Of a stretch of 41,159 bases of DNA, positions 7,760 through 29,583 are shown piece by piece. Origin of the DNA: Bacteroidia bacterium (lineage in GTDB: Bacteria; Bacteroidota; Bacteroidia; AKYH767-A; OLB10); the NCBI GenBank assembly GCA_016788185.1, contig JAEUTF010000157.1, positions 1 to 41,159 of the forward strand, given 5' to 3'. The first letter of the stretch is position 1. Each line of letters opens with the position of its first letter. The notes below the pieces were generated by a model. It did not search any database, was not told the DNA's origin, and saw only the letters and a program-made list of their open reading frames with translations. The translations under genes were made by a program, and so were the position numbers.

Positions 7760-9907
7760 TTACTGGGGATTGGGAGCCACCCTTTCAGGACGCTTCTCCA
7801 GTAAAACCTTACGGGAAAGGCGATACTTACCGGTTTTCTTGTCGATCTCCACCAGTTTTACTTTAACGATGTCTCCTTCTTTGAAAACACCGTCCATTGT
7901 GGCCAGACGCTCGTTGGAAATTTCAGATATGTGCAGCAAGCCATCTTTTCCAGGCATAAACTCAACGAAAGCTCCGAAGGTGGTAATGGTTTTCACTTTT
8001 CCTTCGTACACTTCACCTACTTCGGGCTCCGTAACGATACCTTTAATGCGCGACAATGCAGCCTCGATGCATTCTTTATCGGGCGATGCAATCTCTACGT
8101 GGCCTTCGTTGTTGATTTCCTCGATGGTAATGGTGGTGTTGGTGAGACGCTGAATTTCCTGGATGATTTTACCTCCGGGTCCGATGATCGCACCGATGTA
8201 CTCTTTCGCTACCCTCAGTTTAACAATACGTGGGGCATGCGGCTTGTAATCCTCGGCAGGGGCAGAGATAGTCTTATTCATTTCGCCCAGGATATGAAGG
8301 CGTCCGTTGCGGGCCTGCTCGAGTGCCTGGAGGAGGATGTCGTAGGGAAGTCCGTCCACTTTCAGGTCCATCTGACAGGCGCAAATGCCCTTGGAGGTAC
8401 CGGTGACTTTGAAGTCCATGTCACCCAGGTGATCTTCATCGCCAAGGATATCACTCAATACGGCAAAGTTGCCTTTGCCATCGGTGATGAGACCCATCGC
8501 AATCCCCGAAACCGCTGATTTGATTTTGATACCAGCATCCATCAGGGCCATACTTCCGGCACAAACGGTGGCCATGGAAGATGAGCCGTTGGACTCAAGA
8601 ATATCGGATACAATACGGATGGTGTAGGGGTTGAGGTCTTCTCCCGGCATTACCTGACGCAATGAACGGAGGGCCAGGTTACCATGTCCTACTTCCCGAC
8701 GGCTCTGACCGCGGTTGGGCTTTACTTCGCCGGTGCTGAAGCCGGGGAAGTTATAGTGCAACATAAAATTGTTCGTGCCCTGGTACATGGCCTGGTCGAT
8801 GATTTGCTCGTCGAGTTTGGTGCCCAGCGTAACGGTGGTCAGCGATTGCGTTTCACCGCGAGTGAAGAGGGCAGATCCGTGTGCAGAAGGGAGGTAGGCC
8901 ACTTCCGACCAGATCGGACGGATGTCGGTCAGGCCGCGGCCATCCAGACGAATGCGCTCTTTGAGAATCATATCACGCATCGCATCGTATTCCACGTCGT
9001 GGTAATATTTCTTGATCAGCTTTTCCTTCTCAGCAAGTTCTTCCGCACTGAAAGTGGCCAGGAATTCATCCAGGACAGCCTTAAAGCCAACTTTCCGCTC
9101 CTGTTTGTTCGGGTTGCAGCGACGGGCTACGGCATACACTTTATCGTAGGTTTCGCGCTTTACCTTTTCACGCAATTCCTCATCGTGCGTCTCGTGTGAG
9201 TATTCACGCTTCGTCACACCACCCAGTTTGGTGGCCAGCTCCAACTGAGCCTGGCACTGCACTTTGATGGCATCGTGCGCAATGCGGATGGCTTCGGCCA
9301 TGTCGCGCTCCTGCACTTCATCGCATTCACCTTCTACCATCAGGATGTCTCTGGCAGTTCCGGCAACGATCAGGTCAATGTCTGCATCATCGAGCAGCGA
9401 AATTTTTGGATTTACCAGGTATTCACCGTTGATCCTGCAAACGCGCACTTCCGAAACCGGTCCGTTGAAGGGGATGTCGGAAATACTCACCGCGGCAGAA
9501 GCAGCCAGACCGGCAAGACTATCGGGAGCCACTTCTTTATCGGCAGAAATGAGGGTAACCTGAATCTGGATTTCAGCATGGTAATCATCCGGGAAAATCG
9601 GACGCAGGGCGCGATCGATCAGGCGGCAAACAAGAATTTCTGCTTCGGTCGGACGGGCTTCACGACGAAAGAAGGAACCGGGGATTCGGCCCGAAGAGGC
9701 GAATTTTTCCTGGTAATCTACTGTGAGGGGTAAAAAGTCTACGCCTTCTTTGGCTTCGGGCGAGGAAACTACGGTAGCAAGAAGCATGCAGTTGCCCTGA
9801 CGGACAATCACCGAGCCATGTGCCTGTTTGGCAAGACGGCCGGTTTCAATAATAATTTCTCTTCCATCCGGCAGAAGAGAGGTAACGGAGGTTGCTTTTG
9901 GTTGCAT
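7760..9907 (-). CDS. pnp: polyribonucleotide nucleotidyltransferase (PNPase)
   Basis: Trimeric 3'-5' phosphorolytic exoribonuclease that degrades mRNA to nucleoside diphosphates and can add tails. The 715 residues contain the full set of domains: a first RNase PH domain ([19 protein letters not shown]...), a helical linker, a catalytic second RNase PH domain ([39 protein letters not shown]), a KH domain ([19 protein letters not shown]) and an S1 domain ([33 protein letters not shown]). The start [15 protein letters not shown] fits the family. It lies 176 bases downstream of rpsO, the classic rpsO-pnp order, but a terminator hairpin sits between the two, so expression may depend on readthrough or a separate promoter. 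Confidence 0.97.
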
Positions 9908-25677: not shown

Positions 25678-26001
25678 TTACGCCCGCAGGGCCTTGAAGT
25701 TTCCTTTCGATGCAGCATTCAGCTTTACGGAAGCCTTGCTGATAATGTCGAGTACAACGGGCGCTTTAATGGAGTAATATATGTTGATACCGTCACGTGT
25801 TGCCTCCAGCACTCCCTTGCGCCTCATGGATGCAAGGTGGTGAGAAACAAGCGATTGCTCCACTCCAAGCTTGGTGCAAATCTGTGAAACAGTCAGTTCA
25901 CCTTTGGCATCCAGCATCATGATAATTTCAATTCTGGTGGGGTGAGAAATGACTTTCAGGAAGCCGGCTGCCTGATTGATTTTTGTTTTGTTGATTGTCA
26001 T
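25678..26001 (-). CDS. ArsR-family winged helix-turn-helix regulator
   Basis: A 107-residue DNA-binding regulator. The ArsR fold is clear: AAGFLKVISHPTRIEIIMMLDAKGELTVSQICTKLGVEQSLVSHHLASMRRKGVLEATRDGINIYYSI, with the recognition helix in EQSLVSHHLASM and the beta wing in ATRDGINIYYSI (residue runs here are described, not aligned). Only a single cysteine is present near the metal site of classical ArsR (SQIC), so sensing of arsenite by a Cys trio is unlikely; the signal is unknown. The ATG at 26001 is chosen over a TTG 15 bases upstream. It has an exact TAnnTTTG promoter core and may control itself or trxA through the dyads between them. Confidence 0.88.
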   Translation of the reverse strand: MTINKTKINQAAGFLKVISHPTRIEIIMMLDAKGELTVSQICTKLGVEQSLVSHHLASMRRKGVLEATRDGINIYYSIKAPVVLDIISKASVKLNAASKGNFKALRA

Positions 26002-26039
26002 AGTGCAAAGGAACAACCAAACATGAAAATAGTTTGTGA

Positions 26040-26047
26040 CAAAAGTA
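26040..26047 (-). promoter_or_regulatory. promoter core of the ArsR-type gene
   Basis: On the minus strand, TACTTTTG (26047-26040) matches TAnnTTTG exactly, 38 bases before the ATG at 26001. It lies in the 75-base gap after the MCE gene, so the regulator has its own promoter. Confidence 0.5.
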
Positions 26048-26076
26048 ACACAGCTACATGATGAAACTCACATGTA

Positions 26077-28891: not shown

Positions 28892-28929
28892 GCGTGATGA
28901 TAATCACGCCTGCTTTTGATCCTTATCAA
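28892..28929 (+). promoter_or_regulatory. tandem FNR/CRP-like operator dyads
   Basis: Dyad 1 is GCGTGAT-N4-ATCACGC (28892-28909), a perfect 7-4-7 repeat centred at 28900.5. Dyad 2 is TTTGAT-CCTT-ATCAAA, with core TTGAT-N4-ATCAA (28916-28929) centred at 28922.5, identical to the FNR consensus. The shared TGAT-N4-ATCA core and 22-bp centre spacing (two helical turns) suggest two dimers of a CRP/FNR-family regulator on one DNA face. Dyad 2 lies about 41-44 bases ahead of the predicted transcription start, the class II activator position. Confidence 0.65.
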
Positions 28930-28951
28930 AGATGAAAGAAATGAATCTGTG

Positions 28952-28959
28952 TACATTTG
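28952..28959 (+). promoter_or_regulatory. promoter core of the coiled-coil gene
   Basis: TACATTTG matches TAnnTTTG exactly, 15 bases before the ATG at 28975. No -33 TTTG is present at the usual distance; dyad 2 occupies that region, consistent with an activator-dependent promoter. Confidence 0.6.
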
Positions 28960-28974
28960 AACAAAATCAAGATC

Positions 28975-29583
28975 ATGAAAACAGGAGAAACTTTTGCGGA
29001 ATTTAAATCCATCGCTGACAAACTGGTGAAGGACATTCAGGAAGAATGGAAAGACATCAAAACCAAATGGGCTCCGGCAGAAGAGGAGGCCATACAGCGT
29101 TTTGAGGAGTTAAAGAACAATTTCAAAACGACGCTGAACGCCCTGGACAAGGAAATGCAGAACTGGAAAAATTCCAACCGACAGGAGTTGGATGCTGTAA
29201 AAGAGAAAATTGATCATCTGTATGTACAACTAAACCTGGGTAAAGCCGAAGGGATGCAGTCGTTTGAAGAACAAAAGCAGAAAATCACTACCGAGTGGAA
29301 TGCTTTCAAATTAAAGCTCGAGCAAATGCCCGAATATCAAACCATGCAAAATAAACTCAAGGAGGAATTGATTGACTGGAGAATTAAGCTTGACATGATG
29401 AAGGTGCAGTTCGCGCTCGGTAAAATGGAGGTGAAAGACAGTTGGAAAAACATTTCCGAAGAACTGGGAAAGGAAGCCGGTCATCTGGGGAAAGCCGTGG
29501 AGGCGGGTGCCGGTATAGCGGGAGAGAAGCTCGACCAGTTTGAAGGCGAAATAAAAAAGATATTCGATAAGTTTAAGAAATAA
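28975..29583 (+). CDS. hypothetical coiled-coil protein with a ~60-residue internal repeat
   Basis: A 202-residue, highly charged, almost entirely helical protein with no cysteine, signal peptide or membrane helix; I do not recognise a family. It has a regular spread of tryptophans (residues 25, 31, 64, 108, 135, 157) in a Lys/Glu-rich background, as in amphipathic helix bundles. Two copies of a motif stand exactly 60 residues apart: KIDHLYVQLNLGKAE at 78-92 and KLDMMKVQFALGKME at 138-152. The surrounding segments (about 50-107 and 111-165) align with each other, so this is an internal duplication. A glycine/alanine-rich stretch (168-183) precedes a short C-terminal helix. The ATG at 28975 is chosen over an in-frame TTG at 28957. 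It is a single-gene unit with a dedicated dyad-controlled promoter and a terminator-like hairpin. A stress or low-oxygen role is inference from the operator only. Confidence 0.75.
   Translation: MKTGETFAEFKSIADKLVKDIQEEWKDIKTKWAPAEEEAIQRFEELKNNFKTTLNALDKEMQNWKNSNRQELDAVKEKIDHLYVQLNLGKAEGMQSFEEQKQKITTEWNAFKLKLEQMPEYQTMQNKLKEELIDWRIKLDMMKVQFALGKMEVKDSWKNISEELGKEAGHLGKAVEAGAGIAGEKLDQFEGEIKKIFDKFKK

Follow-up and report, generated by a model that had tools for sequence, protein, structure and literature searches.

The window (the whole 41,159-nucleotide stretch of DNA analysed here) contains an open reading frame (ORF) whose product, an all-helical (coiled-coil) protein, belongs to no known family. 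In front of this ORF lie two palindromes, each with the TGA-N6-TCA two-fold symmetry of CRP/FNR-type sites, followed by a Bacteroidota −7 box (Table 1). When the window sequence was read directly, both palindromes were perfect and their centres, at 28900.5 and 28922.5, were 22 bp apart, in agreement with the initial annotation. In the transcription start map of Flavobacterium psychrophilum, the box TAnnTTTG occupies −12 to −5 (PMC9723704). No start has been mapped here, and the positions of the dyad centres relative to the start are inferred by combining this mapped box position with the 23-nt offset between dyad 2 and the box.

Table 1 Features of the putative promoter and of the gene behind it (positions in the window).
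Feature	Position	Strand	Remark
Palindrome 1, GCGTGATGATAATCACGC	28892-28909		GCGTGAT-GATA-ATCACGC
Palindrome 2, TTTGATCCTTATCAAA	28915-28930		TTTGAT-CCTT-ATCAAA
Dyad 1 core, TGATGATAATCA	28895-28906	+	Putative upstream activator site, centre about −63.5
Dyad 2 core, TGATCCTTATCA	28917-28928	+	Putative activator site at the class II position, centre about −41.5
Spacer	28929-28951	+	23 nt, fixed length, without −33 box
Bacteroidota −7 box, TACATTTG	28952-28959	+	TAnnTTTG; consensus and position from PMC9723704
Predicted transcription start	28964	+	Inferred from the −7 box at −12 to −5; unmapped
Coiled-coil ORF	28975-29583	+	202 aa, ATG at 28975

That the coiled-coil protein lacks a family, as had been supposed, was borne out by a Pfam search, in which the best matches (apolipoprotein, V-SNARE) stayed below the cut-off. 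Its AlphaFold2 model was all-helical with low confidence (pLDDT 66), and a PDB fold search gave nothing significant. The protein has relatives of 19–50% identity, and a profile matched over the full length in about 30 of 295 genomes of the class. When up to two mismatches were allowed, a tandem with 22-bp spacing was present upstream of 14 of 29 orthologues (the window's own counted; seven families), whereas shuffled upstream sequences reached this level in 0.1% of cases; the dyads thus recur upstream of orthologues. Two orthologues from the same genus had no dyads upstream at the threshold used, suggesting that regulon membership turns over quickly, with sites gained and lost. Judged from these upstream regions, the coiled-coil gene is a recurring member of the tandem-dyad gene set; that its product acts as a stress factor is inferred.

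Pattern searches of the genome to which the window belongs, a 3.23-Mb Bacteroidota draft of 282 contigs, detected only two perfect 22-bp TGAYNNNNRTCA tandems (chance expectation about 0.01 per genome by our own estimate). One is the window site and the other (contig C227, 4577-4610) lies 49 bp before the gene of a CcoI/FixI-type copper P-type ATPase. Two further tandems each have a single mismatch and are followed by a correct −7 box; the genes behind them encode a universal stress protein (C167) and Hsp20 (C198). The strict single dyad does not define a general regulon: KTGAT-N4-ATCAM matches elsewhere in the genome are nearly all intragenic, arguing against a general single-dyad FNR regulon with the strict motif, and this candidate was rejected.

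Degenerate copies of the design were also seen. In the window, 26006-26070 holds a tandem with two mismatches and a weak TTCCTTTG box 23 nt on, facing an ArsR-family gene (25678-26016, minus strand); this gene may be another, weak member of the regulon, unless the match arose by chance. On C227, a degenerate tandem with a TATTTTTG box (8288-8352) stands before the gene of a small YgaP/DUF2892-like membrane protein, whose family is also among the class-wide targets. Before a beta-eliminating lyase (tryptophanase-like) gene (C5:78442, minus strand), dyad 2 is perfect, dyad 1 deviates at two positions and the −7 box is in place.

The window site is an instance of a rigid design, TGAYNNNNRTCA-N10-TGAYNNNNRTCA-N23-TAnnTTTG. 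When no more than a single mismatch was allowed, the full design was matched 243 times in 72 of 100 relatives from the class, and a reversed control pattern was not matched at all in the same 100 genomes. A search for two dyads at any spacing of 16–28 bp also had matches in 72 of these genomes; the spacing was exactly 22 bp in 48 of the 64 tandems fetched, and 57 of the 63 tandems spaced by 21–23 bp were intergenic, mostly 45–60 bp before an ORF. Among 63 site-gene pairs, 26 had a TAnnTTTG box that begins precisely 23 nt downstream of dyad 2, and further sites had weaker boxes at the same offset. The design is nearly confined to the class Bacteroidia, since a phylum-wide draw of 395 genomes gave matches outside it only in G365, G558 and G593. 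G558 and G593, which belong to one family of another class in the same phylum, carry 8 and 10 full-design copies, respectively; the other out-of-class genomes have none, save one with a single copy. These genome counts include no correction for common ancestry.

From 172 distinct sites the consensus TGAY-(A-rich N4)-RTCA-N10-TGAY-N4-RTCA-T-N22-TAnnTTTG was obtained. The missing −33 box, remarked on at the window site by the initial annotation, is likewise not seen in this class-wide motif, and the proposed activator positions near −41 and −63 fit the class-wide 23-nt offset together with the Flavobacterium box position. The equation of dyad 2 with the FNR consensus holds only locally: in the window dyad 2 does match TTGAT-N4-ATCAA, but across the class the outer FNR bases are rare (T before dyad 1 in 14% of sites, A after dyad 2 in 3%). 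Similarly, both dyads have perfect arms in the window, but neither the GCG...CGC arms of dyad 1 nor the outer T...A of dyad 2 are conserved class-wide. Of two features expected of an FNR regulon proper, the outer bases of the consensus are lacking in the class-wide motif; the other, an FNR protein with four Fe-S cysteines, is present in the genome.

Six cNMP-binding proteins are encoded in the genome, among them regulators with an E..R recognition helix of the CRP/FNR family, so that the regulator on which the initial annotation depended has candidates. The first is a REC-CRP fusion of 353 aa (receiver-cNMP-HTH_Crp_2; C227:5667-6728), which adjoins the ccoI tandem. Its upstream neighbour encodes a PAS-HisKA-HATPase kinase, the PAS domain of which matches haem-PAS structures of FixL (E about 4e-8) and aligns with them at the haem His. 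The second is a four-cysteine FNR (C166:5268-5975). A 222-aa CRP-family protein (C224) is less likely because it has Val for the recognition Glu (GTSRVVVSR). A cAMP-CRP regulon was also rejected: the site is TGAY-N4-RTCA and not TGTGA-N6-TCACA, and no member of the REC-CRP family has an Arg at the position of CRP Arg82, which contacts the cAMP phosphate.

Full-length relatives of the REC-CRP fusion were found in 71 of the 100 class genomes, and these 71 contained 3.2 sites on average versus 0.6 in the 29 genomes without one (Mann-Whitney p=4e-8, Fisher p=3e-7, both uncorrected for ancestry). Perfect tandems occurred at 33.6 per Mb within 10 kb of REC-CRP genes compared with 0.82 per Mb genome-wide, an approximately 40-fold difference. 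Near 80 REC-CRP genes drawn from a second genome collection, 46 pairs were spaced by 22 bp, 4 by 23 bp and 1 by 21 bp, where about 0.1 is expected per spacing, and 15 of the 23 core box matches at REC-CRP loci stood at +23. The PAS kinase was adjacent to REC-CRP in 77 of 80 loci, and in several loci the sites precede the kinase-regulator operon itself. The FixL-type haem His, recognised by sequence match, is kept in 76 of 78 aligned kinases. In 81 REC-CRP sequences the phospho-acceptor Asp53, Lys105 and the recognition residues E318 and R322 are invariant.

A rather unlikely alternative is that the stand-alone FNR is the activator and senses O2 directly through an Fe-S cluster, REC-CRP merely modulating the response or controlling other genes. 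This protein has a CxxCx8C motif and a fourth Cys that corresponds to FNR C122, it matches A. fischeri FNR in the PDB over residues 9-231, and its recognition helix is nearly identical to that of the REC-CRP fusion. Tandems lie directly beside FNR genes in several genomes, among them G026, G045, G067 and G078, and some of the genomes with such neighbours have no REC-CRP; genomes that lack REC-CRP but have an FNR paralogue often keep sites; REC-CRP is therefore not the sole user of the tandems. The match of window dyad 2 to the FNR consensus also counts for this reading, but the class motif does not keep the outer bases. In the genome studied here, moreover, the neighbours of the FNR gene (a ScdA/hemerythrin gene and an unknown gene for a 602-aa protein) have only single dyads with the same 23-nt offset, whereas the neighbour with a tandem is ccoI, beside REC-CRP, and both the association and the site density are strongest for REC-CRP. 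The 602-aa protein (C166, 6692-8500) has no Pfam family, and its gene is preceded by a perfect predicted single-dyad class II promoter, TGACCATTATCA-N23-TACCTTTG.

Pfam tallies of the genes right after the sites in relatives were made in two overlapping sets. Universal stress proteins accounted for 8 of 51 and 13 of 109 genes; others encode the PAS kinase itself, DoxX, Hsp20, CcoI-type ATPases, FixS (with CcoI, a cbb3 oxidase assembly factor), cytochrome c, hemerythrin/ScdA, baeRF family 3, OsmC and YgaP-like proteins. Going by these families, the targets make up a micro-oxic and nitrosative stress set. The initial guess of a low-oxygen or stress response fits these other target genes, although there are no expression data for the organism.

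NO or CO might replace O2 as the signal, the haem-PAS kinase then turning on a nitrosative-stress defence. ScdA/hemerythrin, OsmC and cytochrome c among the targets would suit this. Arg220 of BjFixL stabilises O2, and the PAS kinase has Leu at this position, so that its ligand may not be O2. We nevertheless regard this possibility as rather unlikely: the targets include CcoI and FixS, assembly factors of the high-affinity cbb3 oxidase, and in F. psychrophilum O2 limitation induces cbb3 (PMC9723704). Finally, it is hardly tenable that the two palindromes arose by chance or form a terminator/attenuator-like structure with no role in regulation, because the unconserved outer GCG...CGC arms and the missing dyads in same-genus orthologues are outweighed by the 22-bp spacing, the 23-nt −7 box offset, the 14 of 29 orthologues and the absence of control matches, which already contradict it.

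We consider it likely that the window site is an activator-dependent promoter of a class-wide Bacteroidia regulon with paired CRP/FNR-type sites, with REC-CRP as the most likely activator. In this mechanism, two CRP/FNR-family dimers would occupy the TGAYNNNNRTCA dyads at about −63.5 and −41.5 and, as 22 bp is about two helical turns, would sit on the same face of the DNA. From the class II position, the lower dimer would contact RNA polymerase and compensate for the absent −33 box, and the upper one may add cooperativity or a class I contact. The REC-CRP fusion would be phosphorylated by the adjacent PAS-HisKA kinase, the PAS domain of which resembles the haem PAS of FixL and retains its ligand His, while the four-cysteine FNR, given almost the same recognition helix, probably shares some of the sites. 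The sequences themselves demonstrate the architecture and its conservation, its linkage and co-occurrence with the regulators, the target classes and the conserved residues. Binding and activation are inferred, as are phosphorylation, haem binding and an O2-dependent kinase activity; the signal, most likely falling O2 or else NO, is also an inference. One control would thereby link the coiled-coil protein with universal stress proteins and Hsp20, with proteins of micro-oxic respiration (CcoI, FixS, cytochrome c) and with Fe-S/NO repair by ScdA/hemerythrin.

We lean, though only slightly, towards the broader view that this is an undescribed global regulon for low-oxygen (or NO) survival in the class Bacteroidia, in which a haem-PAS kinase and an activator combining receiver and CRP domains in one protein act through paired dyads 22 bp apart; it would be a convergent counterpart of the DosR dormancy regulon, with the coiled-coil protein as a regular effector. 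Neither a REC-CRP regulator nor a tandem-dyad regulon in Bacteroidota was found described in the open-access literature; subscription journals and bioRxiv were largely outside the scope of this search, and a description elsewhere is not excluded. Oxygen regulation is poorly described in environmental Bacteroidia. Here the promoter code can be read from sequence (two TGAYNNNNRTCA dyads 22 bp apart and a −7 box 23 nt on) and candidate regulators are named, so that an entire regulon can be predicted across thousands of genomes, among them those of culturable Dyadobacter, Runella and Rufibacter strains. The code also offers a function class, low-oxygen or nitrosative stress, for protein families of unknown role, starting with the coiled-coil family, and makes it possible to test directly why the same targets (universal stress proteins, Hsp20, cbb3 assembly) have come under unrelated regulators in unrelated bacteria.

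Several known systems resemble the one proposed here. The rhizobial FixL-FixJ-FixK/FnrN system, like the one inferred here, has a haem-PAS kinase, a receiver protein and CRP/FNR-type sites (TTGA-N6-TCAA) (PMC7888657; PMC11784457), and its anaeroboxes control cbb3 and a small heat-shock protein (PMC11784457), target classes that recur here as cbb3 assembly and small heat-shock genes. However, the receiver and the CRP-type output are here in one protein, without a LuxR-type FixJ or a separate FixK step, the sites come in pairs with a constant 22-bp spacing and are tied to the Bacteroidota −7 box, and the PAS domain differs from that of BjFixL in lacking Arg220. Tandem and class II-III CRP/FNR promoters of Proteobacteria, including those of FNR, share the TGA-N6-TCA dyads, the class II position inferred here for dyad 2 and the dispensable −35-type box; in contrast to them, the sites described here have the sigma-A box TAnnTTTG at a fixed 23 nt and an almost invariant 22-bp pairing, and do not conserve the outer bases of TTGAT-N4-ATCAA. 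HcpR2 of Bacteroides is also a CRP/FNR-family regulator in Bacteroidota, with the motif GTAACnnnnGTTAC and a regulon that is mostly hcp (PMC1274295); it was rejected because its motif differs from that of the class.

DosS/DosT-DosR (DevR) of Mycobacterium and OsdKR of Streptomyces combine oxygen-responsive kinases and a response regulator with universal stress and heat-shock targets, and their binding sites cluster around the regulator gene (PMC5069765), as do the sites here. DosR, however, is a LuxR-type protein recognising an unrelated G+C-rich palindrome and its kinases hold haem in GAF domains, whereas the output domain here is HTH_Crp_2 and the sensor a PAS domain, so that membership of the DosR/DevR regulon was rejected. 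NmpRSTU of Myxococcus xanthus has a haem sensor kinase and a hypoxia regulon of universal stress proteins, cbb3 oxidase with its P-type ATPase and hemerythrin (PMC11841059), a target set like ours, but it uses an NtrC-like regulator and a protoglobin kinase. By analogy, the system in Bacteroidia would work like DosR/OsdR, FixLJ-FixK/FnrN and NmpRSTU, and by the features listed it is a member of none of them.
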